Source: a virus | Strand: one strand, 5' to 3' | DNA: 64,000 nucleotides | Virus record (IMG/VR): IMGVR_UViG_3300020056_000025 | Span: 1-64,000 of that record | Shown here: piece by piece, positions 954 to 62,930 of the stretch | How positions within the stretch are numbered: position 1 is the first letter of the stretch | How the letters are laid out: the number at the start of each line of letters is the position of its first letter | Notes under the pieces: model-generated | What the model saw: only the letters and a program-made list of their open reading frames with translations | Databases searched by the model: none | What the model was told of the DNA's origin: nothing | Position numbers and translations under genes: made by a program

Positions 954-1608
954 GGGATGTGAACTTGTCCCCTATAGCAACTCTCTCAAGCTTACTGGTT
1001 GCGAAATAGTAAACAAATTAATGCTTGAACATTTCAATGATGTTTTGAAATTTAATGAAGATGAAAATTCTTTTGCGTCAGTATTTGAACCTGACTTTTT
1101 CTTTTATTATGATCTTCGTCACTATAAAAAAGATCGAATTTTAGTTAGTGAACTAGGTCTTGGAGAAATTAGAGAGGACGAAGAAAATACTTATATAGAT
1201 CGCAAATTCTGTGTTTATCACAAAACGTCAGATGAAGAAGTGATCCCCTCGCCAGCATTTTACCAAAACCAGACAACATCAAAAGATGAATATATGCACG
1301 TTCAATATCACCCTATTGCTAACGCCTTGCAGCTTTTCTTAGCCCCACACACAGTACCATTTTCAGATATATCTGGCCCCTCAACAGTTCTCATAGAAGA
1401 AAATAGCGTATTAGGAAGAAAGAAAGGTAATATTGAATCTATCAATATAAAAGACTTATTCACTAATTCTAAAAAGCCAACAGTTTTACAAAACAAAGCT
1501 TTACCTAAAAAACCAGCCAAAGGAACAGTAGTTATGGACAGTGCAGACGGTATGGTTAAAGTGTACAATGGAGAAACGTGGAAAACTTTAAAATATGAAG
1601 ATACCTAA
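910..1608 (+). CDS. Hypothetical, possibly virion-associated protein (232 aa)
   Basis: Not assigned to a family with confidence. The start at 910 has AGGAAAGG upstream and lies inside the preceding gene. The C-terminal segment, around GTVVMDSADGMVKVYNGETW, resembles a short beta-hairpin motif (GTVVxDxxxxxxKVYxGxxW) common in phage fibre and virion proteins, which hints that it is structural. The middle is acidic and aromatic-rich. It overlaps the sigma-like gene by 14 bases, so the two are probably co-translated. The virion role is inference from the C-terminal motif only. Confidence 0.65.
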   Translation: MKVKPLKTTNRIIAEGCELVPYSNSLKLTGCEIVNKLMLEHFNDVLKFNEDENSFASVFEPDFFFYYDLRHYKKDRILVSELGLGEIREDEENTYIDRKFCVYHKTSDEEVIPSPAFYQNQTTSKDEYMHVQYHPIANALQLFLAPHTVPFSDISGPSTVLIEENSVLGRKKGNIESINIKDLFTNSKKPTVLQNKALPKKPAKGTVVMDSADGMVKVYNGETWKTLKYEDT

Positions 1609-2086
1609 GAATATGACCGAGGAGGAAACTTTAGATAAAATAAATTTAGTTGTAGACAGGATATCACCCAAGTATACATTCTTTGGTTACGATGTAAATG
1701 ATATAAAACAGGAAGCTTTTATAATATGCGTTGAAGCTTTAGAAAGATATGATCAAAAAAGACCACTAGAGAATTTTCTATCAGTCAATTTATCTAACAG
1801 GTTGAAGAATTTTGTTAGAGACAATTTTGGAAACGCTAAAGATGTTGAGAAGAAAAAAATATCTTGTCCCACGGCAATAACTCACGAATATTCCAGAACC
1901 CTATCTTACCAAGAAGATGTAGACCTAAAATTAGATATGTCTGATATTAGAGAAAAGATAGATAAAGAATTACACTCCAGCTATAGGGCCGACTATTTAA
2001 AGTTTATTAATAATATTACAATACCTAAACCAAGACGAGATAATTTAATACAAGAACTCAAGGATATTGTTAATGAAGACAGGTAG
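1595..2086 (+). CDS. Sigma-70 region 2-like protein, candidate late-transcription sigma factor (T4 gp55-like)
   Basis: A 163-residue protein whose residues about 33-78 read as sigma region 2: a DIKQEAFI segment, then ALERYD, then RPLENFLSVNLSNRLKNFVR. These match the core-binding and -10 recognition helices of sigma70-family proteins. No region 4 (-35 binding) is visible. That size and content match T4 gp55, which recognises only a -10-like late promoter. The start overlaps the previous gene by 14 bases; an alternative ATG lies 18 bases downstream. Identical GTGTATAA boxes lacking -35 elements precede several structural genes, which fits a phage sigma of this kind. Family membership is read from sequence; the promoter specificity is inferred. 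Confidence 0.75.
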   Translation: MKIPKNMTEEETLDKINLVVDRISPKYTFFGYDVNDIKQEAFIICVEALERYDQKRPLENFLSVNLSNRLKNFVRDNFGNAKDVEKKKISCPTAITHEYSRTLSYQEDVDLKLDMSDIREKIDKELHSSYRADYLKFINNITIPKPRRDNLIQELKDIVNEDR

Positions 2087-2861: not shown

Positions 2862-2969
2862 ATGAACCCAGAATCACTAGTTGTAATTTTACCATGTTGG
2901 AGTGCGGCGATTGGTTTAGAACTATTAGTGGTTGGTTTTTTCTACAACTTAGCTAAGGACAAAAAATGA
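2862..2969 (+). CDS. Tiny single-span membrane peptide (35 aa)
   Basis: A 35-residue frame starting at the ATG at 2862, with AAAGGA 7 bases upstream. The product has one hydrophobic segment of about 23 residues (roughly from LVVILPCW to LLVVGFFYNL) ending in a Lys/Asp-rich tail, so a single-pass membrane peptide is likely. The stop overlaps the start of the dehydratase gene as ATGA. Exact spacing, good ribosome binding site and coupling make it a real gene despite its size. Function is unknown; small phage membrane peptides include lysis modulators and envelope-targeting factors. Confidence 0.65.
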   Translation: MNPESLVVILPCWSAAIGLELLVVGFFYNLAKDKK

Positions 2970-4003
2970 AAGCAATCATAACTGGCATTACGGGACAGGA
3001 TGGAAGTCACCTTGCGGATTTACTTTTAGATAAAGGATATGAAGTTATTGGCATTGCTAGGCGTTGTAGCACAGATAATACACAAAGAATAAAAAATATC
3101 TTATATCACGAAAGATTCAAGTTGGTCGAAGGAGACATCACGGATGTAAGTAGTGTAATTAATATATTCAAAGATAACGAAGATGTTGATGAAGTCTACA
3201 ATCTAGCGGCACAGTCGCATGTAGCAACCTCTTTTAAACAACCAGCTCTAACATGGGATATTACTGGTAAAGGCTGTCTCAATTTATTACAGAGCCTTGT
3301 GGACCTAAATATGAAACACGTTAAGTTTTATCAGGCTTCCTCAAGTGAAATGTTTGGAAGTTCTTATGATGTGGATAAAAATGGAGATAAATACCAAAAT
3401 GAAGACACTAAGTTCATGCCGCAATCACCATACGCCATTGCTAAGTGTGCTGCTCATTATGCCGTTGGTTTGTATCGCGGTGGTTATAATTTACATGCTA
3501 GCTGCGGTATATTATTTAACCACGAAGGTCCAAGAAGAGGAGAGAACTTTGTTACCCAAAAAATCGTAAAATGGATATCTGATTTCACGTATTGGAAAGA
3601 GTCTCATGATAATCCAGTATTATTCTTCAGTGATGATTATATAAGTATTCAAAATGACAAGTTTCCAAAACTAAGACTTGGCAATCTACAATCCTATAGA
3701 GACTGGGGCTATGCTGGCGATTACGTAGAAGCTATGTGGTTAATGCTACAAGAGGAAAACCCAGATGATTACGTAGTTTGCACAGGTAAGACATATACAA
3801 TATCAGAGTTTTTAGATATTTCATTTAATTATGTAGGTATATCAGAATGGGAAAAGTATATAGTAATAGATCCAAAATTTTACAGACCTTCTGAAGTTGA
3901 CTATCTTCGCGGAGATTGTAGTAAAATAAAAAACAAGCTAGGATGGCAACCGAAACATAATTTGGAGGGGTTAATAAAACTTATGTTGGATGAGGAACTT
4001 TAA
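2966..4003 (+). CDS. gmd: GDP-mannose 4,6-dehydratase
   Basis: An extended short-chain dehydrogenase/reductase that converts GDP-mannose to GDP-4-keto-6-deoxymannose, the precursor of GDP-fucose, rhamnose-type and related sugars. The N-terminal GITGQDG gives the GxxGxxG NAD(P) motif at residues 7-13. The catalytic SSE segment is near 126-128, and Tyr156-xxx-Lys160 is the active-site pair in SPYAIAKCAAHY. The NHEGPRRGENFVTQKI segment is characteristic of Gmd. Length (345 aa) is normal for the family. The ATGA overlap with the membrane peptide and 14-base overlap with the next gene place it in a tight operon with a glycosyltransferase. No fucose synthase lies in this window, so the final sugar is unknown. 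Confidence 0.92.
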   Translation: MKAIITGITGQDGSHLADLLLDKGYEVIGIARRCSTDNTQRIKNILYHERFKLVEGDITDVSSVINIFKDNEDVDEVYNLAAQSHVATSFKQPALTWDITGKGCLNLLQSLVDLNMKHVKFYQASSSEMFGSSYDVDKNGDKYQNEDTKFMPQSPYAIAKCAAHYAVGLYRGGYNLHASCGILFNHEGPRRGENFVTQKIVKWISDFTYWKESHDNPVLFFSDDYISIQNDKFPKLRLGNLQSYRDWGYAGDYVEAMWLMLQEENPDDYVVCTGKTYTISEFLDISFNYVGISEWEKYIVIDPKFYRPSEVDYLRGDCSKIKNKLGWQPKHNLEGLIKLMLDEEL

Positions 4004-6421: not shown

Positions 6422-8382
6422 AAAGAATTGATGAAGCTTGGCTTGGATTGGACGCGGTAGATTCTGATTTATTTAACCCAATGTCAATACTGAATGTGTC
6501 TGACGATGACTTTAATTTAAAGTTAGCTTGGCTAATGACTAGACCAGACTATCTTTCGTTTATAACTAGCGAAATACTTAATATACAACTGCTTCCTTCT
6601 CAGTCTTTATTTTTGAAAGAGATATGGAATCGAAAGTTTCCAATGCTAATTGCTAGTCGAGGGTTTGGTAAATCCTTCATGCTTTCTCTCTACGCTGTAC
6701 TTAGGGCGCTTATATTTCCTCGCAGAAAGGTTGTTGTCGTTGGTGCTGCATTTAGACAGTCTAAGGTCTTGTTTGAGTATATGGAAACTATATGGCGCAA
6801 TTCCCCGATGCTTAGAGATGTATGTGATAGCGATAGTGGGCCAAGAAGAGATACAGACAGATGCACCCTCCGGTTAAATGATAGTACTGTCACTTGTTTA
6901 CCTTTGGGTGACGGACAAAAAATTAGAGGACAAAGAGCTAATGATATTATTGCTGATGAATTTGCTTCGATCCCAAGGGAAATATTTGAAAATGTTGTGG
7001 CTGGCTTTGCAGCTGTTAGTTCTGACCCTGTTGAGAATGTAAAAAGGCTAGCTGCTCAAAAAAAAGCAGATGAATTAGGAATTACTTTAGAGTTGGAGGA
7101 AAAAGAAGTAAAGAAAGATAATCAAATTGTACTATCTGGCACTGCTTATTATGATTTTAATCATTTTGCTTCTTACTGGAAAAAGTGGAAGTCTATAATT
7201 AGAAGCCAAGGAGATAGAGCAAGACTAAGAGAAATCTTTGGAGAAGATCCACCTGAAAATTTTGATTGGAGCCAGTACTCTATTATTAGAATGCCTTACG
7301 AACTTTTACCAAAAGGGTTTATGGATTCGGATCAAGTAGCCCGATCTAAAGCGACTGTTCACGCTGGGATATACCAAATGGAGTATGGAGCTTGTTTTAC
7401 TAGAGATAGTCAAGGTTTTTTCAAGCGGTCTTTAATAGAATCTTGTGTAGCTAACCAGTCGGGAGATATAAAAGATAAACAAAATCAACCAATATCATTT
7501 GAAGCATCTTTAATTGGAGATAAAAATAAAAAATACATATTTGGAGTTGACCCAGCCTCTGAAGTAGATAATTTCAGCATAGTAATACTTGAGGTTTATC
7601 CAGAACACAGAAGAATTGTATATTGTTGGACCACGACTCGTTCAGAACATAAAGAAAAAGTAAAAAGAGGATATGTCTCGGAAACAGACTTTTATGCATA
7701 TTGCGCTAGAAAAATACGAGACCTTATGAAACTTTTTCCATGCTTGCATATAGCTATGGACGCTCAGGGTGGGGGCGTGGCCGTAATGGAGTCTTTGCAC
7801 GATAAAGATAAAATACAAGAAGGAGAAGTTGCTATATGGCCTACTATAGACGATGATAAACCAAAAGATACAGACGATGAAAGGGGATTGCATATCCTTG
7901 AGATGTGTCAATTTGCTAAATATGATTGGTTGGCTGAAGCTAATCATGGAATGAGAAAAGACTTTGAAGACAAGGCTTTACTATTTCCTTCATTTGACTC
8001 ACTTACTCTTTCCATATCAGAACACGAAGATAACACCAAAGGTAGAATGTTTGATACCATAGAGGAATGCGTTTTAGACATAGAGGAACTTAAAGATGAA
8101 TTATCTATGATACAAATGTCGCAAACATCTGCTGGTCGCGACAGGTGGGATACGCCACAGGTTGTCGTCGGAACGGGAAAGAAAAGCAAAATGAGAAAAG
8201 ATAGATATTCAGCTTTACTTATGGCTAATATGGCCGCTAGAATTATACAAAGAACACCAGAGCAAGCGGCCTATGAATTTTATGGCGGCTTTGCGACTGG
8301 CGGTGGACACAAAGAACAAAAAAATGAAAAAATGTATAATGGTCCCAGTTGGTTCTCTGACAATATGAAAGATGTGTATTAA
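6403..8382 (+). CDS. terL: Terminase large subunit
   Basis: The packaging motor ATPase and nuclease (659 aa). Walker A is SRGFGKS at residues 85-91 and Walker B is DIIADEF at 181-187, with the catalytic Glu. The C-terminal RNase H-like nuclease starts at YIFGVDPAS (Asp383) and continues through HIAMDAQGGG (Asp453), with further acidic residues toward KDRYSALL near the end. I chose the ATG at 6403, 19 bases inside the ClpP-like gene, because the protein reads well from MAKSKLK and AAGG lies upstream; a longer in-frame start at 6343 would be buried in the previous gene. The portal gene follows, the standard packaging order. Confidence 0.93.
   Translation: MAKSKLKRIDEAWLGLDAVDSDLFNPMSILNVSDDDFNLKLAWLMTRPDYLSFITSEILNIQLLPSQSLFLKEIWNRKFPMLIASRGFGKSFMLSLYAVLRALIFPRRKVVVVGAAFRQSKVLFEYMETIWRNSPMLRDVCDSDSGPRRDTDRCTLRLNDSTVTCLPLGDGQKIRGQRANDIIADEFASIPREIFENVVAGFAAVSSDPVENVKRLAAQKKADELGITLELEEKEVKKDNQIVLSGTAYYDFNHFASYWKKWKSIIRSQGDRARLREIFGEDPPENFDWSQYSIIRMPYELLPKGFMDSDQVARSKATVHAGIYQMEYGACFTRDSQGFFKRSLIESCVANQSGDIKDKQNQPISFEASLIGDKNKKYIFGVDPASEVDNFSIVILEVYPEHRRIVYCWTTTRSEHKEKVKRGYVSETDFYAYCARKIRDLMKLFPCLHIAMDAQGGGVAVMESLHDKDKIQEGEVAIWPTIDDDKPKDTDDERGLHILEMCQFAKYDWLAEANHGMRKDFEDKALLFPSFDSLTLSISEHEDNTKGRMFDTIEECVLDIEELKDELSMIQMSQTSAGRDRWDTPQVVVGTGKKSKMRKDRYSALLMANMAARIIQRTPEQAAYEFYGGFATGGGHKEQKNEKMYNGPSWFSDNMKDVY
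8374..8381 (+). promoter_or_regulatory. Imperfect late-promoter-like box before the portal gene
   Basis: GTGTATTA, one mismatch from the GTGTATAA box, lies 49 bases before the portal ATG and overlaps the terminase stop. The spacing fits the other boxes, but the mismatch and coding overlap make it uncertain. Confidence 0.3.
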
Positions 8383-10434: not shown

Positions 10435-10442
10435 GTGTATAA
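10435..10442 (+). promoter_or_regulatory. Candidate late promoter box GTGTATAA (copy 2)
   Basis: TTTTGTGTATAATCC in the short gap after the portal gene, 26 bases before the ATG at 10461. No -35-like hexamer lies 16-18 bases upstream; that stretch is T-rich. It is nearly identical to the copy at 62923 over about 12 bases. Confidence 0.6.
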
Positions 10443-13491: not shown

Positions 13492-13525
13492 AAGCCACCC
13501 TCATTGACTTGGGGGTGGCTTTTTT
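13492..13525 (+). terminator. Rho-independent terminator after the major capsid gene
   Basis: A 9-base stem (AAGCCACCC with GGGTGGCTT) and a 12-base loop, followed by a T run (13520-13525). It ends the head-gene transcript 25 bases after the capsid stop. A GTGTATAT box follows immediately for the next unit. Confidence 0.88.
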
Positions 13526-13533
13526 GTGTATAT
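13526..13533 (+). promoter_or_regulatory. Candidate late promoter box (GTGTATAT, copy 3)
   Basis: GTGTATAT directly after the terminator T run, 52 bases before the ATG at 13578. It differs from the consensus box only at the last base. A promoter here would restart transcription for the fibre cassette. Confidence 0.5.
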
Positions 13534-25352: not shown

Positions 25353-25360
25353 GTGTATAA
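25353..25360 (+). promoter_or_regulatory. Candidate late promoter box GTGTATAA (copy 4)
   Basis: GTGTATAA in the 91-base gap, 59 bases before the ATG at 25412. No recognisable -35 hexamer at the expected distance. It marks a possible new unit for the connector and neck genes. Confidence 0.6.
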
Positions 25361-30601: not shown

Positions 30602-30609
30602 GTGTATAA
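30602..30609 (+). promoter_or_regulatory. Candidate late promoter box GTGTATAA (copy 5)
   Basis: GTGTATAAA two bases after the preceding stop and 68 bases before the tail-tube ATG. The predicted leader contains TGGAGAA for ribosome binding. No -35-like hexamer upstream. Confidence 0.6.
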
Positions 30610-40470: not shown

Positions 40471-43400
40471 ATGTCAAGTAGATGTTCTAATAATGATTCT
40501 TTGAAAGTTAGAATAAAATCTGAGACAAAACTCAGAAATCATATAATTAAAAAAGTAAAACTAAAAGCAAAACCAACCGTTACTTCCAAGTTTAAATCTT
40601 TTGCTTCATTGCAGATAATTGGGTACGCCAGAGGTGGAGGTTCTTCAGGATCTTTTTCTTCAAATAATTTTGGTTCATCTAATTTTGGCGCAGAAAGCTT
40701 GTCTTCTGGACCAATTTTGCCAAAGATTATGAGAGGCGTTTTTGATATTTCTTTTGATTATGTTAAAGAATTTATTCCAAAGCCGCCCAGATCTTTACCA
40801 TCTCAATTAATTGATATTACATCTGTAGAAATTAAAAAGGGAGGATGGGACGCAATTCCCGATTCAGTTTACGAACCAGCTTCTTCGAATAATCATACAT
40901 ATACTTATATAAATTCACCTCAGTTTAATCATAGGCCGATAGCTAGATTTAAAACTTCGTTTAATTTCAAGTCTAGTTTAGGCATTCCTTTAATTAATTT
41001 AAATTCAAAGTTTAAGTCTTCTTCAAACTTTTCATCAAAATTCTTTGAGAAAATAAAAGGGCATGTTGCAAAGCTAAATACTTTTGACTTTAGCAATCCC
41101 TATCTACAGCGTTTGTATCCAGAATTAGACGAGCCCGTTACTAGCGACGTTACTTTTGTTGATAAAATTCAAAACTCAAGCGGAATATATAGTAGTATAA
41201 ATGAGGGAGTTTTTACTGGAAGTGTAATGCAAAATCAAGGCACTGGCTACTTAATGTCAGATGATTCTAATACTTATATTACCCCTTCCTCTATCAGTAC
41301 CGATAACGTATCTAGTTATAGATGTGTTGTAACAACTCCAAATATTACTCCCACAGAAAGCCTCTTATTTATTAGAGCGACAACTCCTCTATTCACAAAC
41401 GAGACAGATCGACCACCAAGCTATGATATATATAACATATTATTCCTAGATCCTTCTGGAAATAAAATAGCTAAATATAAAGATGTTACTGTTGGGGGCG
41501 AATCAGATTATTACAAATCCTCTATTTCAAATATAGATAAAGATTGGTTTACTATTGTTACTGAGCCATCAGAGTTTTATGCTGGTACTGGTGTTAGCAG
41601 AATAGATTATCCAATTTTAGGAGAACCAAGTGGATATACATTATCTTTTGATGTAAAATCAAATTGTAAATTTGAACCATTTGATGATGGATTTAATGAA
41701 GGCTTTGAAGAAGGGTGTGATATTAGTCGATTGGGTTTAGACTTGTCTTCTCACTATTTTCCTGCAAACTCAGTAAATAATCATCTTGGAATATCAAGTA
41801 CTCCTCTCTCAACACGAACTCAAGGATATCGATTAAATCCAAATAATTCTATAAGATTCTCTGCTCTAGAAATTGTTAATGCCGGATTGAGTAGTGGAAT
41901 AATACACGATACCGTTTTAAATTTACACATAACACCACAACCAACGGGTCAAAGATTAGAAAGAATTTTATCCCCAACTAAGGTTCTAACAACTAGTTAT
42001 ACAAACAACATTTATCCCACTGGAATAGTTAATACTTGGGTCTCTTCTGCCGACGCTGACGGACTTAGATTTGATAACACTTCAGATGAACACGCTGGAG
42101 TTTTGGTAGATAGACTTGTGAATCGTTTTGTTGACGGCTGGATAACTCTAGAAGATATTAATCCAATAGCTTCCTCTGGTAAACTACAGCTTGTTTATAA
42201 ACACAGCAAGCCAAAATCTATTAAACAACCTACGGGTGGAGCCTTCTTGTTTGGCCAAAAGTATGGCGGATCGGATTTTGGAACCGCAAAAATAGAAATA
42301 GTTCCTGCTGATGATTCTTTTTATGTTATAGAAGAAATTAAGCTAAGAATTTCTGCGAAGAAAGCTTCTGGCACTGACGATTACCCGATTGATGTAGTTG
42401 GGTATAGTGACGATGGGGTTTTGGCGATAACTTCTCAGGTTGGTGGATTTTTACAAAATGAACAAATTGGTTCCGGCGCAGTTCCTTTACATTCTGGCTT
42501 TCTACCTACAGATGATTTAGGAATTTCTACAAATTCTATATCAGATAAATATGCATATTTTCAAGAAAAAATAATAAAACATGCAGCTGGCGACCATTAT
42601 ATGGTTTCTACTTCTCCAGTTGTTAATAGTACTTCTTTCGAAACATATGACATTCCTCTTAAGATATATAATGATTCAGTAGAATTGGGTCGGTCAAAAG
42701 ATTACTCTATGAGTAGTTATTTCGAGCAGTTATACTTAGATATTTATCCCATACCTAGCGGTGCTTCTATCCAAAGAGCTGATCTGATAATTAAATACAA
42801 ACCAGCTGGAGCATTGCCATTAAGTACTGCTGGATATCTTTCTAGAGAATTTTATAGCAGAGAAGGAAGGTTATATCCAGACGCAAAGAGAGGCACTGAT
42901 GTTATAACAAATTCTAATTCTGAACCTCTATCTTTAATTGAAAACATACCGCACGGATATACACATATAGAAGATACTCTTAAAACTAATTACTCAAGAA
43001 GATGGCGTGGCAATACCGGAAACGTTGATAGTTCTGCTTTCGATCCAGTATCTTTTGACTTCTCTTTTGAGAGAAGTGTATTAGATCAACCATTTCTTCT
43101 TGGTTATTTTGATTTTAATAAAACAGTTGGAAGTTATGTTATAGATTCTAATAATTACGGTTCAACCTCTGGAGTCTTTAATTCAGATTTACAGTCTAGC
43201 TTAATAAGAAATATTGGTTTAAGATTTAATTCTGACAGCTTGTTTAATGCCAATGTTAGAAATTACAAAACTATTGACTGGTGCGGAAGTGGCCATGAAC
43301 TAGAAGGAAAAATACTTGACGCTTATGATAACGCTCTGCGTGTTTCTGGTGTTAATGGTTACTTAGACTTTGGAAATACTCCAACCTCTAGCGGTTTTTC

Positions 43401-46400
43401 TGTTTACACAAGGTTTTCTCCTGACTCAAGTATTAGCGGGGTTGGATACAATGGTTGGAATGACGGAGTTATTTTTGGTAAATGGGACAGTGGGCAAAAT
43501 CTAGAGTATGCCCTTGGTTATGAAAACGAATACCTGTGCGTATATGCAAGATCTGAAGATTCTTCTGTTGTAAAAGTCGTTGATTCTATCCCTTATACTT
43601 CTTATCAATATCCTCTTTCTACCTTAGTTACATACAATCAAAATCATGATAATAAACTAAGACTATATGCTTATAACGAAATTTCTTCTGGCATTCCTGT
43701 TTTGAGAGGTGAATCGTCTTCGTTTATTATGCATAGTGGAAATAGTAGCTTGTCATTTGGGTATTCTTCTGGTTCAGGGGTTGGTATAAATGCGTTCATT
43801 CATGAAATTGGAATTTCACACGTAAATGCTAGTGGTTCTACTAATTTGGTTGAAGGCGTAGGCAATAGATCTATACAAGAAGAAAGTGTAGCAGACTTTT
43901 TTGCGTCTCAAGCAATTGACTTCTGGAGAGGATCTGACAATTTATGGAACTATGTTGACGAAAAAACTGATGATTGGAAATTGGGATCATTTAAGTATTG
44001 CTCTTTTTCTCCAGACTTTAACGTTATGAGCCTTCGTATTGGGAAAGACTTTATATATCATAATTTTTATAATCATGGACAAACATATGACAACCTAACA
44101 GACCTGAGCCTACCAGATTCAACCAAAGCTTCGGGATTAGCATACCATACACAAATTGAAAACGACATGCTGAGAGTTCAGCTTTCTGGTAGAGAAGATA
44201 GATTTCACGCAGTTGCTCCAAGAATTTCTAAAAACTTTCCAAGAAGTTACTTGTTTGCAGAAGATTCACTTCTAGTCAATACGATAATGCAGCACAGCTG
44301 TGACCAAGATATTGTTTGGCCAGATGGTCGGCGTGGAGTTAAAATTATTGTTAGTCTTTATACACCAAGTAGAGAAAGCGAATATACTCCGACTAAAAAC
44401 TATGGCTTAGTAAGTAGAGATGTTCACTACGTTACTCCAGAGGATTGCTGGTTGAAGCTAAGAAGTAAATTCACCTTAGAAAACTATAATGACACCAGTA
44501 GTGAGCCTTGGTCTTACTTCGATAAAACTATTAGCAAAAAAGAATTTACAGAGAATTATTTCTCTAGAGACGTTGATGAAATGTTTGTGCAGTATGATTT
44601 AGCTTACCCTTCTGGTACTTACGAAGAATCAAAAATTATAATTCATTCTTTAGATATTAGTCTTGATAATATACTTCTTAACAAAGATAATGAAAATGAG
44701 CGATTAAATGTTTACACTAGCGGCGAACCATACAGAGACTCATCTTTAAATTTATCTTGGGCCGAAGGTTCGGTAAGAGGTGTTATTGCTGCACAAGGTT
44801 TTGGATCTTCGAACTATGGCGTTGTTCTGGGTGATTCTATTACTCTTAATGATCTATCGCTCGGTTTTTACACAAGCGGAAATATATACTCTAATATTTA
44901 TACGAGCGGAATAAACCTTTATGCTTCTGGATATACGTATGATTCAGATATTCTTAATTGTTACAGTGTGGGTAGTGAGACCCACAGTGGATTACTAAAT
45001 ATCAGTAGCTTAGGCGGTTACGCAAATGAAAACAATTTAAACAAACCGTTCTGCTTATATTCTGACGCCTTTTACGCAAACGCTGACCACCTGAGCGAAA
45101 GTCTAAACGTTTATAATTTGGGAGTTAACACCAAGGGAGAATTTGCTTCTAATATTAACGAAACTATGCATAGCTTTATACTAGGTGGATTAGGAGCTAC
45201 AAGTTTTCCAATTAGTATATCAGAAACTTTCAATATCTCTATTGCTACTCCTCAATTTGCTTCAATTAATTTTCAAGATTCTATAAATTTATATACTGTT
45301 GTTCGTAAGGTGGAAGACACAATATTCGATAGTGTTAACATGTATACTCACCACGAAGCCAGAATAGTAAAAGAAGAAAATGAATTAGAATCATTTTTAT
45401 GGAATGGGAAGAACTTTGGTTTTGAAATTTATGTAGATGATAATCAATATGCATCAATTCCAGCAAATGATGAAATACGGGGCGTAAACACGATGTGTTA
45501 CGGAGACTGTGATTCTCTTGCTGGAATACCTTGCACAGAAACAGACATTGTTACCCATGATACACTATGGTATTCGCCAGAATGCGTAGATGGCGGCGTT
45601 ATAAGACCATATAGAGTTTATAGTAACCCAGATGTAAATGCTTTTGGGACAAATCAACCATACGATAAGCAATATTATGGCATAAGAAAATTCACAAGCT
45701 TGATACCAAACGCTCCCTACACGATTAAGATTACTGGACAAAGTGGAGGCGGTGAAGTTTTAGAGGTTCCTAGAGAAGTGTCAGAATGGAACTATGGAAA
45801 ATCAGAAACTCCATCCGGCGTGTTAAGCCCTGAAGTAAATTATTCAGGACTTCAGATTTTAGAAAGTTTAAGCAATCGTGATTCTAATAACAATTTTGGA
45901 AAATCTGTCAAAGTTGTAGGAGATTTACTTGCTGTTGGTGTTCCACACGCAGATAGCACTGTTGGTGTGGATGACTTATTAAATTCTGATACAGCTTCTC
46001 GCACTGTAAATAGTCATGGAAAAATATATGTTTACAGAAGAAACCCAGCTCCATCTGGACATGATTGGTCGAATCAAGATGACCAAGCTCAATGGTCTGT
46101 TGAGCAAGAAATTGTTTTACCCACAGGTTGGAGGAGGGATTACTTTACCAATACTGTCGCTAGCTTTACTGATGATACTGGAGAATTCCTGCCATTTACT
46201 GGATCTGTTAGAAGTTGGTTTAATTCTGGAGAGGGACGAGAGCTTGGATATTCCTTAGATGCAACTAAAGTCGGGGATAAAGAAATTATAGTAGCTGGTG
46301 GACCCGGATGCGAGTGGACAAGGACGTTTGCTCCCATAGCAGCTACCCCAGTTTCTATTGGTTTAATTGTTTTTAATAATGAACTACAATCCAACGCAAA

Positions 46401-49400
46401 ACCTTGGCAAAATATATTAGAAGAATTAAAAAATAGAGATTTATTATATCGATACTTTTCTGATCCGCCAGTTGAATTTGATATTAAGATTATGATTTTA
46501 GAACCACATCTTGGTTCAAATATATCTTTTCAGCCATCAGATGAATTTGCTACTCCGAAGCCAGATTTTGTATCTAAACACGTTACTACAAGACACTGGG
46601 AAAGGAGTACCACCAGTCAAGAATGGATTGATGCAGACGCTGTGATTCTGCAAGAAATGAAAAATATTTTCCACGAAACGTTCCCAATAACCCCCGGAGC
46701 GTTACATAGTGGAATTCCTCCTTTACTTGGTATATTTATAGATGACTCTGCCTCCTTGGGAACTGATGTTGTTGGTTATTATACCAACGGATTCAAGGGC
46801 GCTGTAAACAAGTTCATAGATTATTACAATTCTTATTCGTACAATAATGGTTTAAGTGATCAATATGGCAACCCGTCCGAAGGATACACTCAGGTTACAG
46901 TTAGACAAAGAGAAGCAGACTGGGTTGACCAATCCATTGAATGTCTTAAAGATATTACAGATATTAATAAAATTATTGAAAATAATAAAACAAATTTAAT
47001 AGCTAATAATCTTGGTACATTTAATGTTAATGCTCAAGAGTTTAATAACCCTCCTCCGAGTGGTGGTGCTGTTTACATTTTTGAGAAAGAAAACCAAGAT
47101 TCTTTGTTTGAGCTAAAGCAGGAAATAAGATCTCCCGCAACATACACAGATAATGCTTCTGATAGATTTGGACACGATGTTGCAATTAGTAAAAACGGAA
47201 ATATAATCGTAATTGGTTCTCCTTACTCAGAAAACGCTGTTCAAATTTTTGAAAAAAATAATTCACACGAAAAAGAATTGCAAACCAAAATACATCAAAG
47301 AATACCAGCTTTCTTAAATGCTGAATACAACAAAGAAGTTCAAAATCAAACCTTTGGAGAATCCTTTAATTTATATGAAGATTACCTTGAGCAAAAGGAT
47401 ATCGTTAATGACTTTGCTTTAACAGAGTCTCTGTTTAATAGAATGTCAGAGAGTTTAAAGTTATCTTTTTATAAATCTTATGATATATCCCCATACAAAA
47501 AAATAAAAGATCTTACTTACTCTGATATTCACAAAGACATGGGTGGTGTATGGAGTGAATTTTATTCTAAGTACATACCAACTTCTCGCATTGGTTATAG
47601 CGTTGATACAAACGATGATGGAACTTTAGTTGCAATTGGTTGTCCAACCGACAGTCTTGGAGAGAGAGATAATACCATTACTTGGTTTAGGCATGATGGT
47701 GGACAAACTCAAGATTGGCAATGGCAAAATTATGTCAACGCAGGATGTGTTAGAGTCTTAGAGAGCAGAAAGTATTACCCCCACACTAACAAGGTTGTTG
47801 AATTTTATAAGTATGGAAATTTACATGAAGATCTTGCTACTGAAGAGCATAAGTACTTATACCATGATAATATAAAACAAATGTTTGAAAGCAAGCATTT
47901 AGATTATTCTAGAACTAGTTTCTCAGAAGACGTTGATATTCCAGAAGACGCCGGAATGGCTTTCATTATAACTCCATCGATTGATGCTTCTAGTGACGAA
48001 GTTGTGCAAAATATTAAAAATTGGTTGGCAAAAGGTGACAGACATTTAGTTCTTGTTGGCGATGATCCAAGATACGAAAAAAATGGCGCGTTTCAAAAAT
48101 CAACAGCTATTATTAATGAGTTGCTAGAAAAACTAGATATCAATATGAGAATTTATCCTGCTCGGAATGAAAGAGAAGCTTTACTCACGGATACAAATAT
48201 AGAATTAAATGTTCAACAGTCTTTTAAGCCAGCTAAGTCTAGCAGCATTCTTGGGTATGCGGGTAGTAAGTTAAAGTCTTATGGTGTGGGAGATATTAGG
48301 CATTACAATAAAGATAAATTAGATTTATATAATTGTACTCTTCCGTTTGGGACAAAGCTTACTAGCAATGGAGAGTTAACAGAAAATTACAATGATCCAT
48401 TTGTAATATTAGAAAAAATTGATGCTGTCTCAGATGGTTCTGAACCGCCAAGAAAAAAGATTTATAGAGAGATGCATGATAAGTGTCATCTACCAATTAA
48501 ACATGAGGGCGATTTAAGAGCGGAGTATCAAGACCAATGTGCCTTTATTAACTTGGGTGGCTCCCCTGTTTGGTTAAACTATAAGAGGAATTTACCTTTT
48601 GCTTATGGGGATCATATTACGGCGGATTGGGGCTGTGTTGGTCCGGGAGATGTAATTTTATCAAAAGAAGAAAACCTCAGAGATTCACATGCTCCAGTTC
48701 CAATGCTAGCAGCTTATGAAAATGTTAATCTTAAATTTGACGTTCCAGAAATTCCTGCCTCTCAATTTCTTCAGCGTTATATTTCTTCTTATAAAGATGG
48801 ATATCAACATAAGTTTGGAAGAGTTCCTTACTCGGGAGTTTCTTTTTCTTGGACTGCAAATGAAAGTAATTATACATCAATTGAAAATAATATTAACCAA
48901 ATTACCAGCGAAAGTCTTTTCTTTGATCCTCCACAAACTGCTTCCTCCGATGGTTTTATTGATTCAATAATGCAAGCGAAAGCAACAACTCCACTAAGAG
49001 AAGTAGAACAAGATATTAATGCGGGGTATTTCAATGTTGTAAATGAGGAACCATACCTTCCTCATGAGGTTGATAATTCTCATGTTGTATTAATGGCTAC
49101 AACTTTTACTGAAAGAAAAGATATATTGCTTTCATCGCAGAATGATGCTAATCTAGTATTTTATAAAAACTTGTTAACGTATCGTAATAGTATAAACTCT
49201 CAAGGTTTTTATTGTAAAGTCGCTCAGTTGGGAAGCTTTACAAATAGATCTAGTTATACTGATGGTTACTTCAAAAGCGATATAGCTTTCCAAATGTATG
49301 GTCTCGGGGTAGACATGCGAGATCTAAACGTTGACATTGACGATATATCCTTAGAGCACTTAGAGTATAATGTTGTTTGGATTGCTAACACTGATCAGAT

Positions 49401-52400
49401 GCCTTCTGATGAAGATATTTCTAAGCTAAAAGACTTTTTAAGCCTTGGAAATAAAAAGGTTGTTATTACATATGGTCAGGAACCAAATAAACCAGAAGAA
49501 AGTTTAGAGCTTACACCTTATATGATAAGGGCAGCAAATGTCGCTAGAAATATTTGCGAAAAATTAGGCGTTACTATGCGTCCAAATTTCTTGGTCGGAA
49601 AAAACAGATACGCTTTTAAAGAAGACTATAATAGCAATGCTGTGGGTAAATATTCAGAATTGTATATTGTATCTGAATATGCTCAAGAAGGAATACCGCG
49701 CCTAGAGGGTGACTATGCTAAATTTACTACTAATGCCCCACCGTTTACTAGGTATGGCTTAGGAACAACATTAGATCATAACATTATACCAATACAAAAA
49801 AATAACAGCTCAATATTGCTTAGACTTGAAGAAACAGTTTCTGATATACAAACTGTTTCTTTAGGAAAACCAAAATTAAACACTGGTATTACCAAAGTAA
49901 CATTTGACGTTCCAGACCATTCAGAAGAACTTTCTCACGATCTTGGTAGGCAGGCTGAAGATGATTTATATCTATTTAGAATGTACTTTGATGTTATCTC
50001 ACTAACAGAACAGGAAAACCAAAACATTAAAGTTTATATAGAAAATGCTCAGTCTTCCATAAATTCTGATCAAGAAGGTCAAGCGCTACCAATTAGTAAT
50101 GCTAAAGGAACATTAGTTCAAATACAAGACGGAGACGATCTTGGTAATATTTACAATTCTAATATATCCGCTGGAGCTAATATTACCCTTCAAAAGTCTT
50201 CTTCCTTGAAGACCTACACTTTAGATTTTCAAGCGGCGAGTGGAACCCAAATAAACCTGTACTTTACTGGCTATAAATATTGGCCAGAACGTGATTTGGT
50301 TCCAAATCCAGAACAAGTAAGAACTACGAGGCTTGTTGCAGTTTCTGGTGTTAGAGTTCCTGTAGAAACTACGGTTTCTCCTACATATCCAGTTTATGAT
50401 GTAAGAGTAGTTGAAACTCCTGCTACACCGGGATACTCTTATTATCAAGATGTGGACAGGCAAATTAGTACAAACAGTTCTAAATACTGTGCAGAGAATA
50501 ATTCTGAAATATGTTCAGCTGAACCTCCAATTGGCTATGGGTCCGAAGGTTCTGATTTAGATATTGCTGACGGACCAGTGGTGGTCGCACAACAGTTTTA
50601 TGATCAAGCAGGTTTTTATTCTGGACATAATAGATCTAGGGTTACTGTTATTAGTGATGCAAGTTTAATTCAGGGTCCAAACATTTTAACACAAGAAGGA
50701 AATACTGTTACAGATTTAGCTAGCTTTTTAGCTTCTTTATATCCAACTACGAATGAGTTTTTTCAGGACGAATACTATGGTGTTCAGCAAAGCACTTTCT
50801 ACCCAAATGCTTACAAATTAATTTCTCCCGAAAGATCTAGTCCAAGTAGGCTAGTAAACGCATTTCCTCAAAACTCTGGATTAAATGCTAGATTTGGTTC
50901 ATATCCAAGTTCTGGATTTCCTGTTAGTTCTTATGCTGATGACGAGGGTAAGAAAAACATTAACATTCCTTTGGGTCAAGATCAAGCTGCGATACCTTTT
51001 GACCTTATGATTGGTTTATTAGCAGCTGATGATCCCGGAACTTTTAGGCAGCTTCCAGAACCTCCAAGATTGCCACCAAGCTACTGGTTTTCGGTTTTTC
51101 CTTATACATATTTAGGATATACCCAACAAGAATATGAACAAAAGTGGTACACTGACGAATTTTTACAATATCAAGCTTATTGGTCTTCTACTTCAAAAAT
51201 ACAAGATGTTTATCAAGGCCAGACCTACGTGGATGCGGGCTTGTCGGAAAGAATTCCACCAATAATGAGAGCTACTGGTTTTGATCACCTTGACTTGGAT
51301 GTGTTTAATTCTGGATATCCCGGAGATTTGTTTGGTTATAAAGTATGCATACATAATGATAAGATTTATGCTGGATCTCCATTTACTCCCTATAGCTCTG
51401 AGACTATTCTTTCTTGGGATGAAATTTTAGACAGTGGATACATGCATGGCGTTGAGATTGGTTACAACGGCGGAGCTGGAGCTGTTTATCAAATTGAAAA
51501 AGTTGGAAACGTTGGCAGTGGTGTTGGATCAATTCAAGGTTCTTCAAAAGAAACGTCTGGATTACCTTGGCAAACAGTCAAAAAAATTAGACCACAAGAA
51601 ATCGGAGTTGGATTTTCTAATTTAACCGCGAACGAAGCATCTGGAATTTTTGGTAATCACTTATATACTGATGAGTTTTTACAAAACAATGCTTTTGTTT
51701 CAGATATGTTTGGTTACAATATTACACTAGACGCTGATTTAATGGCGATATCAGCTCCCGGTCATAATTTTGAAGTTTTATTCCAAGAAAATTCTGGACA
51801 ATTTGTTAATAAAGAATTTAATGAGCAATTTAATATTACTACTCGAAACCAATATGATTTAGCAATTCAATCCAATAGAAATAACTACCCGAATAGCGGT
51901 GAAACTATAATAAATAATGGAGCTGTGTTTACCTATGAAAATAAAATTAATGACTGGGGATCTAAGAGTAAAGACTGGACACCCATACAGAAACTAACTC
52001 CAGAGCAAGTTACCTTTAGCTCAGGTAATGCTTACTTTGGACAAGCCATAAGCATGTTTAGATCAAACAGATCTGACGCAGATTACATACTAGCTATAGG
52101 TTCTAAAAATTATACCACTGATACTATGCAAAAAGCTGGATCTGTTTATACCAATGATGCAATGTTGAGAAAATTAAGACCGGCCTTTTCTCATCCAGAT
52201 ACATATCTAGCTGGAAAAGTTTTTGGAAACTATAAAGACAAAAGTGAATATATTGAATTTAACTTTAAAAATGGAAATATCCCAGATGATAAACATTCTT
52301 TCGAGGGTAGAGTTTTTGCCAATGAGCAGGGAGAAATATTTATTGAAGCCTCTGGTCAGGACATGGTTGACAGAGGATATGTAAATCACAGACCGTTTAT

Positions 52401-52704
52401 TAAGCAGATTCGTGGGGCTTACGAATTTGGTGTAAAAAATACAGAAAGAATCAATTTATACTCTGAAGGTAAACCATTTTCTTCGTCTGGCGCGCTCAAC
52501 CTTACCAGCAAAGCTCCAGACGTGGGAATTGTGTATAATAATGTAGGACTTTACAGCATATCCAATTTAGATAGTTCTGGAATTTTGCAATTATATGCTA
52601 GTGGAATTAATATGAATAATATACATGAAGATATAAATTTTGTATGTAGTGGTATTGTTTTTATGGACCCTCAGTCTATAGCCCTTTATGGATATTCAAT
52701 ATAA
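40471..52704 (+). CDS. Giant multidomain tail protein (4077 aa) with FG-GAP propeller-like and LamG-like modules
   Basis: One uninterrupted 4077-residue frame (about 450 kDa) between the tape measure and tail-tip genes. Seen in order: a basic N terminus; beta-rich N-terminal third; a laminin-G/concanavalin-like domain (about 875-1120, LLGYFDFNKTVGSYVIDS at its start); an LYxSG-type repeat region (about 1395-1630); FG-GAP-like motifs near residues 1808, 1923, 2232, 2373, 3620, 3747 and 3855; a MIDAS-like DDSAS near 2091; two related alpha/beta domains (2495-2573 and 2967-3048); and a second LYxSG region at the C terminus (3991-4077). Position implies a tail-tip or side-fibre protein; size and domain mix suggest adhesion. 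The stop overlaps the next ATG by one base. Confidence 0.85.
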   Translation: MSSRCSNNDSLKVRIKSETKLRNHIIKKVKLKAKPTVTSKFKSFASLQIIGYARGGGSSGSFSSNNFGSSNFGAESLSSGPILPKIMRGVFDISFDYVKEFIPKPPRSLPSQLIDITSVEIKKGGWDAIPDSVYEPASSNNHTYTYINSPQFNHRPIARFKTSFNFKSSLGIPLINLNSKFKSSSNFSSKFFEKIKGHVAKLNTFDFSNPYLQRLYPELDEPVTSDVTFVDKIQNSSGIYSSINEGVFTGSVMQNQGTGYLMSDDSNTYITPSSISTDNVSSYRCVVTTPNITPTESLLFIRATTPLFTNETDRPPSYDIYNILFLDPSGNKIAKYKDVTVGGESDYYKSSISNIDKDWFTIVTEPSEFYAGTGVSRIDYPILGEPSGYTLSFDVKSNCKFEPFDDGFNEGFEEGCDISRLGLDLSSHYFPANSVNNHLGISSTPLSTRTQGYRLNPNNSIRFSALEIVNAGLSSGIIHDTVLNLHITPQPTGQRLERILSPTKVLTTSYTNNIYPTGIVNTWVSSADADGLRFDNTSDEHAGVLVDRLVNRFVDGWITLEDINPIASSGKLQLVYKHSKPKSIKQPTGGAFLFGQKYGGSDFGTAKIEIVPADDSFYVIEEIKLRISAKKASGTDDYPIDVVGYSDDGVLAITSQVGGFLQNEQIGSGAVPLHSGFLPTDDLGISTNSISDKYAYFQEKIIKHAAGDHYMVSTSPVVNSTSFETYDIPLKIYNDSVELGRSKDYSMSSYFEQLYLDIYPIPSGASIQRADLIIKYKPAGALPLSTAGYLSREFYSREGRLYPDAKRGTDVITNSNSEPLSLIENIPHGYTHIEDTLKTNYSRRWRGNTGNVDSSAFDPVSFDFSFERSVLDQPFLLGYFDFNKTVGSYVIDSNNYGSTSGVFNSDLQSSLIRNIGLRFNSDSLFNANVRNYKTIDWCGSGHELEGKILDAYDNALRVSGVNGYLDFGNTPTSSGFSVYTRFSPDSSISGVGYNGWNDGVIFGKWDSGQNLEYALGYENEYLCVYARSEDSSVVKVVDSIPYTSYQYPLSTLVTYNQNHDNKLRLYAYNEISSGIPVLRGESSSFIMHSGNSSLSFGYSSGSGVGINAFIHEIGISHVNASGSTNLVEGVGNRSIQEESVADFFASQAIDFWRGSDNLWNYVDEKTDDWKLGSFKYCSFSPDFNVMSLRIGKDFIYHNFYNHGQTYDNLTDLSLPDSTKASGLAYHTQIENDMLRVQLSGREDRFHAVAPRISKNFPRSYLFAEDSLLVNTIMQHSCDQDIVWPDGRRGVKIIVSLYTPSRESEYTPTKNYGLVSRDVHYVTPEDCWLKLRSKFTLENYNDTSSEPWSYFDKTISKKEFTENYFSRDVDEMFVQYDLAYPSGTYEESKIIIHSLDISLDNILLNKDNENERLNVYTSGEPYRDSSLNLSWAEGSVRGVIAAQGFGSSNYGVVLGDSITLNDLSLGFYTSGNIYSNIYTSGINLYASGYTYDSDILNCYSVGSETHSGLLNISSLGGYANENNLNKPFCLYSDAFYANADHLSESLNVYNLGVNTKGEFASNINETMHSFILGGLGATSFPISISETFNISIATPQFASINFQDSINLYTVVRKVEDTIFDSVNMYTHHEARIVKEENELESFLWNGKNFGFEIYVDDNQYASIPANDEIRGVNTMCYGDCDSLAGIPCTETDIVTHDTLWYSPECVDGGVIRPYRVYSNPDVNAFGTNQPYDKQYYGIRKFTSLIPNAPYTIKITGQSGGGEVLEVPREVSEWNYGKSETPSGVLSPEVNYSGLQILESLSNRDSNNNFGKSVKVVGDLLAVGVPHADSTVGVDDLLNSDTASRTVNSHGKIYVYRRNPAPSGHDWSNQDDQAQWSVEQEIVLPTGWRRDYFTNTVASFTDDTGEFLPFTGSVRSWFNSGEGRELGYSLDATKVGDKEIIVAGGPGCEWTRTFAPIAATPVSIGLIVFNNELQSNAKPWQNILEELKNRDLLYRYFSDPPVEFDIKIMILEPHLGSNISFQPSDEFATPKPDFVSKHVTTRHWERSTTSQEWIDADAVILQEMKNIFHETFPITPGALHSGIPPLLGIFIDDSASLGTDVVGYYTNGFKGAVNKFIDYYNSYSYNNGLSDQYGNPSEGYTQVTVRQREADWVDQSIECLKDITDINKIIENNKTNLIANNLGTFNVNAQEFNNPPPSGGAVYIFEKENQDSLFELKQEIRSPATYTDNASDRFGHDVAISKNGNIIVIGSPYSENAVQIFEKNNSHEKELQTKIHQRIPAFLNAEYNKEVQNQTFGESFNLYEDYLEQKDIVNDFALTESLFNRMSESLKLSFYKSYDISPYKKIKDLTYSDIHKDMGGVWSEFYSKYIPTSRIGYSVDTNDDGTLVAIGCPTDSLGERDNTITWFRHDGGQTQDWQWQNYVNAGCVRVLESRKYYPHTNKVVEFYKYGNLHEDLATEEHKYLYHDNIKQMFESKHLDYSRTSFSEDVDIPEDAGMAFIITPSIDASSDEVVQNIKNWLAKGDRHLVLVGDDPRYEKNGAFQKSTAIINELLEKLDINMRIYPARNEREALLTDTNIELNVQQSFKPAKSSSILGYAGSKLKSYGVGDIRHYNKDKLDLYNCTLPFGTKLTSNGELTENYNDPFVILEKIDAVSDGSEPPRKKIYREMHDKCHLPIKHEGDLRAEYQDQCAFINLGGSPVWLNYKRNLPFAYGDHITADWGCVGPGDVILSKEENLRDSHAPVPMLAAYENVNLKFDVPEIPASQFLQRYISSYKDGYQHKFGRVPYSGVSFSWTANESNYTSIENNINQITSESLFFDPPQTASSDGFIDSIMQAKATTPLREVEQDINAGYFNVVNEEPYLPHEVDNSHVVLMATTFTERKDILLSSQNDANLVFYKNLLTYRNSINSQGFYCKVAQLGSFTNRSSYTDGYFKSDIAFQMYGLGVDMRDLNVDIDDISLEHLEYNVVWIANTDQMPSDEDISKLKDFLSLGNKKVVITYGQEPNKPEESLELTPYMIRAANVARNICEKLGVTMRPNFLVGKNRYAFKEDYNSNAVGKYSELYIVSEYAQEGIPRLEGDYAKFTTNAPPFTRYGLGTTLDHNIIPIQKNNSSILLRLEETVSDIQTVSLGKPKLNTGITKVTFDVPDHSEELSHDLGRQAEDDLYLFRMYFDVISLTEQENQNIKVYIENAQSSINSDQEGQALPISNAKGTLVQIQDGDDLGNIYNSNISAGANITLQKSSSLKTYTLDFQAASGTQINLYFTGYKYWPERDLVPNPEQVRTTRLVAVSGVRVPVETTVSPTYPVYDVRVVETPATPGYSYYQDVDRQISTNSSKYCAENNSEICSAEPPIGYGSEGSDLDIADGPVVVAQQFYDQAGFYSGHNRSRVTVISDASLIQGPNILTQEGNTVTDLASFLASLYPTTNEFFQDEYYGVQQSTFYPNAYKLISPERSSPSRLVNAFPQNSGLNARFGSYPSSGFPVSSYADDEGKKNINIPLGQDQAAIPFDLMIGLLAADDPGTFRQLPEPPRLPPSYWFSVFPYTYLGYTQQEYEQKWYTDEFLQYQAYWSSTSKIQDVYQGQTYVDAGLSERIPPIMRATGFDHLDLDVFNSGYPGDLFGYKVCIHNDKIYAGSPFTPYSSETILSWDEILDSGYMHGVEIGYNGGAGAVYQIEKVGNVGSGVGSIQGSSKETSGLPWQTVKKIRPQEIGVGFSNLTANEASGIFGNHLYTDEFLQNNAFVSDMFGYNITLDADLMAISAPGHNFEVLFQENSGQFVNKEFNEQFNITTRNQYDLAIQSNRNNYPNSGETIINNGAVFTYENKINDWGSKSKDWTPIQKLTPEQVTFSSGNAYFGQAISMFRSNRSDADYILAIGSKNYTTDTMQKAGSVYTNDAMLRKLRPAFSHPDTYLAGKVFGNYKDKSEYIEFNFKNGNIPDDKHSFEGRVFANEQGEIFIEASGQDMVDRGYVNHRPFIKQIRGAYEFGVKNTERINLYSEGKPFSSSGALNLTSKAPDVGIVYNNVGLYSISNLDSSGILQLYASGINMNNIHEDINFVCSGIVFMDPQSIALYGYSI

Positions 52705-62922: not shown

Positions 62923-62930
62923 GTGTATAA
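62923..62930 (+). promoter_or_regulatory. Candidate late promoter box GTGTATAA (copy 6)
   Basis: TTTTGTGTATAATAC, almost identical to the copy before 10461, 43 bases before the ATG at 62966. No -35-like hexamer upstream. Gives the last virion gene its own start. Confidence 0.6.

Follow-up and report, generated by a model that had tools for sequence, protein, structure and literature searches.

The window analyzed here, 64,000 nucleotides of viral DNA (positions 1 to 64,000 of IMG/VR record IMGVR_UViG_3300020056_000025), encodes a 163-aa protein, sigma A, which belongs to the sigma70 superfamily by the sequence and the fold of its region 2. A conserved box, GTGTATA, occurs upstream of genes of the structural block in this phage and its relatives and usually also lies before the sigma A operon itself. 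We propose, with a probability of about 0.6, that sigma A acts as a pared-down late sigma factor that reads GTGTATAAT without a -35 element, amplifies its own synthesis, and is primed by the host polymerase.

Sigma region 2 in a 163-residue phage protein

The gene and its parts are as follows.
1595 to 2086, + strand: sigma A, a 163-aa region 2-only sigma factor and proposed late-promoter specificity subunit (intact ORF, ATG at 1595, stop at 2086)
1598 to 1828, + strand: sigma2 fold, residues 2 to 78 (AlphaFold model superimposed on sigma factors, rmsd 1.8 to 3.0 Å)
1760 to 1825, + strand: predicted -10 reading segment, residues 56 to 77, regions 2.3 and 2.4 (90% mean identity across 12 phages)
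1874 to 2083, + strand: C-terminal three-helix part, residues 94 to 163, with a conserved LP..R.DYLK...K core and without a sigma4 match

The preliminary description of the window, made from the sequence alone, had seen sigma region 2 in this protein and no visible region 4, and the profile and fold searches that it had suggested agreed with it on both points. Sigma A of the window, taken alone, matched the Pfam model Sigma70_r2 slightly below the Pfam cutoff (E = 2.8e-4), and the model was matched by all 46 aligned relatives (best E value, 7.5e-8). The AlphaFold model had a pLDDT of 82, its residues 2 to 78 lay on sigma2 domains, and its 50 best PDB matches were all sigma factors, with individually weak Foldseek E values. 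Long alignments in which the entire model was set against complete sigmas had an rmsd near 9 Å and were excluded from the evidence.

No region 4 model was among the matches listed for the 46 relatives. In the C-terminal part, the AlphaFold model predicts helices at residues 98 to 125, 128 to 138, and 145 to 160. When the last 70 residues were folded by themselves, they gave no sigma4 and no convincing match, so that a region 4 hidden in this part was not found. Sigma A probably lacks a recognizable region 4, although a weak relation could have escaped these searches.

The late box and two classes of promoters

We mapped the gene layout of nine contigs, namely, the record that contains the window and eight relatives. 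In each of them, the sigma operon stands at the head of a structural block, and there are also genes on the opposite strand, which form a long block only in the larger contigs. We call these blocks "late" and "early," respectively, by layout and not by timing. The box was found in 46/121 late and 31/294 early upstream regions, and the host -35 hexamer TTGACA was found in 0/121 late and 55/294 early ones (Fisher P near 1e-9 for each split, the genomes being related and thus nonindependent). Early genes carry host-type -35/-10 promoters, and the late promoters have the -10-like, -35-less form that the preliminary description had anticipated. Their box, GTGTATAAT, is also unlike the TATAAATA of T4, as stated there.

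The bases before the -10 element separate the two classes as well. GTG directly precedes TATAAT in 18 of 32 cases in the late class and in 7 of 62 in the early class, and TGG does so in none of the late contexts listed. Among 165 early-type promoters with a -35 element, TGG is preferred (38 cases) and GTG comes second (18 cases). Since the late class favors GTG without TGG and the early -35 promoters favor TGG, the late reader would have a specificity of its own, unlike that of the host sigma, with some overlap between the two.

Two other elements of the relatives may be recorded here. In the early blocks of G004, G009, G010, and others, host-type promoters often have the word GCCGATA or GTCGATA, either within the spacer or just 3' of the -10 element, perhaps as a phage operator. 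GC-rich intergenic regions of G012, G010, G004, and G015 hold palindromes, CGTAAGTC...GACTTACG, that are repeated, in some cases at a distance of about 53 bp.

Within the window, the following late boxes lie beyond the sigma A operon.
8374 to 8380, + strand: possible variant box GTGTATT over the end of the terminase gene, 5' of gene 8423 (same layout in relatives)
10435 to 10442, + strand: late box, 19 bp 5' of the ATG of gene 10461 (aligned in nine phages)
13526 to 13532, + strand: late box GTGTATA, GTGTATATA, 45 bp 5' of head-protein gene 13578 and directly 3' of a terminator-like hairpin (13494 to 13525)
25353 to 25360, + strand: late box 5' of gene 25412 (motif match)
30602 to 30609, + strand: late box 5' of gene 30670 (motif match)
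62923 to 62930, + strand: late box 5' of gene 62966 (motif match)

The box at 13526 is absent from the preliminary description and is grouped here with the other late boxes. The variant GTGTATT precedes nine late genes and two early ones in the upstream regions. Two further sites, 44358 (- strand) and 52531 (within an ORF), were taken as chance occurrences.

The late box is a real element. The whole window contains seven matches to GTGTATAA versus 2.5 expected. On the + strand of the late block, six of eight GTGTATA sites are intergenic, in intergenic space that amounts to 850 bases (1.3%); dinucleotide shuffles of the block gave a mean of 0.06 such sites, and none of 2,000 reached six. Unprompted word counts across loci returned GTGTATA as the most enriched 7-mer upstream of genes. 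Upstream of gene 10461, its seven bases are identical in all nine phages while the flanks vary, and the box is unchanged even where sigma A falls to 32% identity. We rejected chance as its origin on the basis of the 7-mer enrichment, the shuffles, and the anagram counts at the sigma A operon given below. The papers listed by a literature search for the box dealt with primers and amplicons, and no phage promoter was among their subjects.

The sigma A operon and the reader of the box

The sigma A operon has the following elements.
721 to 726, + strand: TTGCGA, a weak -35-like hexamer and candidate host-read operon start, 18 bp upstream of TATAAA
742 to 749, + strand: GTGTATAA box at the head of the operon, proposed autoregulatory promoter (position conserved in most of 56 nonredundant loci)
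771 to 953, + strand: 60-aa ORF that opens the operon and has an AAGGAG site (seen in the sequence)
910 to 1608, + strand: 232-aa ORF overlapping the start of sigma A (homologue 5' of sigma A in 68/124 loci, not deduplicated)
2073 to 2858, + strand: helix-turn-helix (HTH) and coiled-coil protein whose gene overlaps sigma A at its 3' end and directly follows it in 120/124 loci (not deduplicated), perhaps a small terminase subunit or a transcription partner

Between this operon and the packaging genes lies an ORF (2966 to 4003) for a putative GDP-mannose 4,6-dehydratase.

The exact box was found within 1.3 kb upstream of sigma A in 49/56 nonredundant loci, at 670 to 1,040 bp in 46 of these, versus 27 loci for the best of its anagrams and 4 for its reverse complement. 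It usually adjoins, on the 5' side, the ribosome site of the first gene. Seven loci lack it before the operon, and in G027 no exact box was present within 1.5 kb around sigma A. The full GTGTATAAT was more frequent at this operon (33/48 boxes) than at other late boxes (15/41; P = 0.003, a value that overstates independence because the loci are related). With the same proviso, -35-like hexamers were more frequent at the operon boxes than at random positions (P = 0.001) but only marginally more frequent than at the other late boxes (P = 0.08). The box at the operon suggests that sigma A amplifies its own expression, and the promoter appears to be open to both readers, first to the host polymerase and then to sigma A. 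Likewise, the sigma gene of phage 7-11 has promoters of both host and phage type upstream and is read from both (PMC4331800).

We infer that sigma A reads the box, which is the best supported of the readings considered here. Its region 2 would dock on the host RNA polymerase core and read GTGTATAAT, in which GTG would occupy roughly -15 to -13 and TATAAT would be the -10 element, with no -35 element. Sigma A would thereby direct transcription of genes for the head, for packaging, and for the tail, presumably late in infection. Through the same box at its own operon, existing sigma A would raise its own level; as this box is nearer to the full host -10 element and weak -35-like matches accompany it, the first sigma A could come from host polymerase. 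A polymerase of the phage's own was rejected for the multisubunit type, as PF00562 (RNA polymerase beta) had no match in ten records while the control was positive. We favor sigma A as the reader because its apparent lack of region 4 fits the missing -35 element and because its reading segment is conserved together with a constant box. In 12 phages with both sigma A and a second sigma, this segment has a mean identity of 90% (minimum, 68%) versus 49% for the rest of the protein, and at least one positionally conserved box, always GTGTATA, is found in most of them. Such conservation of the segment can have other causes, and we counted the boxes of the early block (31/294) against the assignment of sigma A to late boxes.

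The second sigma, sigma B, has regions 2 and 4, and most of the long relatives encode it in their early block (for example, at G009:28954-29424 and G003:22895-23374 and in relatives L191 to L270). The 68-kb window record stops short of the early block where its gene would sit. The preliminary description had spoken of a self-contained late circuit: the box that 49/56 loci have ahead of the sigma A operon suggests the self-amplification that this implies, but with a second sigma in the long relatives "self-contained" is too strong. Sigma B might itself read the box, sigma A being a modifier or the sigma for another class; this is the chief competing reading, and we regard it as unlikely. It would be the usual order of a cascade for an early sigma to read late promoters, and sigma B accompanies sigma A in 9/10 contigs of at least 130 kb. 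Many divergent relatives have a box at or just past the sigma B stop codon, leading into the next gene; the leader that follows carries repeated GGA words (AGGAxxxGGA...AGGAxxxGGA). A promoter class separate from these was not found for sigma B, word enrichment having returned nothing beyond ribosome sites, words from tRNAs, and GTCGATA, so that sigma B may share or own the box. However, the late boxes lack the -35 element that its region 4 would normally use, and its reading segment averages 65% identity in the same 12 phages, with 40% for the rest, and falls to 23% while the box stays constant. The sigma A and sigma B families have no detectable profile similarity.

The box might instead be an extended -10 element for the primary sigma of the host, which would either be aided by a phage activator or share the box with sigma A; this strikes us as improbable. 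The perfect -10 element within GTGTATAAT, the presence of GTG in 18/165 early promoters with a -35 element, and the closeness of the sigma A operon boxes to the host consensus would all suit such a reading. It is harder to reconcile with late promoters that have TTGACA in 0/121 regions and no TGG before TATAAT in the contexts listed, TGG being the commonest early form, and no activator site is evident upstream of the late boxes besides a T tract partly owed to terminators. Some boxes directly follow terminators or overlie stop codons, as a processing or regulatory signal might, but the TATAAT-like core, the position shortly upstream of start codons, and the inverse relation to promoters with a host-type -35 element all suit a promoter, and we give a nonpromoter role hardly any credence.

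Relation to known sigmas and distribution of the family

T4 gp55, the textbook case of a sigma cut down to region 2, depends on the sliding clamp. It consists of sigma region 2, a helix-loop-helix, and a clamp-binding tail (PMC7892883) and reads an 8-bp TATA box without a -35 element (PMC2988020). Sigma A resembles gp55, which acts with gp33 and the clamp gp45, in its small size, its restriction to region 2, and its -10-like late promoter without a -35 element. In a profile alignment, both have an F.GY motif with acidic residues after it (D36 and E40 of sigma A under E70 and D74 of gp55), and the three C-terminal helices of the sigma A model could play the role of the gp55 helix-loop-helix. 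The profile match is weak (hhalign probability, 50; E = 1.6e-4 over 47 columns), and only 2/46 sigma A members matched the PHROG late-sigma family. Unlike gp55, sigma A has a conserved C-terminal hairpin, and its gene heads the structural block with its own box at the operon. The hydrophobic clamp-binding C terminus of gp55 (...LDFLYE) is absent from sigma A, whose members have a charged end, for example NEDR or DEEG, or end in KFYA. Nine long relatives had no match to the sliding-clamp models PF02916 and PF00712, the PF02916 control being barely positive, such that a divergent clamp could escape. The T4 parallel drawn in the preliminary description stands for region 2 and the -35-less late promoter; the clamp-binding tail is missing, and no clamp was detected. 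Given this and the weak profile match, we do not claim membership in the gp55 family, and we suggest only that sigma A works like gp55.

The sigmas of phages phiEco32 and 7-11 likewise serve late promoters. They differ in that they are described as distantly related to the host sigma family, and the 7-11 sigma reads a TGATGT core unlike the box considered here (PMC4331800). Compact two-domain (ECF-like) sigmas share the sigma2 fold, with SigW, CnrH, and SigE among the sequence or fold matches, but differ in that no sigma4 was found in sigma A and no -35 element in its proposed promoters.

The gp55-like logic is known; new here would be a self-amplifying and apparently clamp-free late circuit. 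Tentatively, and with more doubt than confidence, we extend this to a late system that needs no clamp and is unlinked to replication, in which a one-domain sigma, a distinct -35-less box, and a hybrid promoter started by the host and taken over by sigma A operate beside a two-domain phage sigma in a widespread uncultured clade. A family with no detectable clamp, hundreds of natural variants, and a sharp box would permit a direct test of the minimal sigma for promoter opening and of how a phage passes transcription from host to virus, and the box would serve as a promoter signature for annotating this group of uncultured phages.

We then looked into the distribution of sigma A, with gene calls in relatives being simple ORF picks and the contigs being fragments. 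Searching IMG/VR with the single protein gave 63 loci (32 to 69% identity), and searching with the alignment gave 416 matching stretches; tblastn against the GenBank phage collection gave no match, and the relatives that the window terminase has there reach only about 25% identity. The siphovirus-like look noted earlier was borne out by a 2,171-aa tape-measure protein and by the lack of a detectable contractile-sheath gene in the window record and seven relatives. The carriers are probably a large, widespread family of uncultured, likely long-tailed phages. The tail region of the window also holds a single 4,077-aa ORF (40471 to 52704). We discarded host inference from genome bins, as sigma A occurred in only three MAG contigs, probably phage DNA binned along. 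In L056 (1720 to 3033), one ORF spans sigma A and the HTH/coiled-coil protein, either as a true fusion or through a frameshift, and we did not adopt a fusion protein on this single case. Divergent sigma A proteins at L062:739-1377 and L063:298-897 have, behind region 2, an insert rich in cysteines (CxxCPF...C...C) that may be a metal site.
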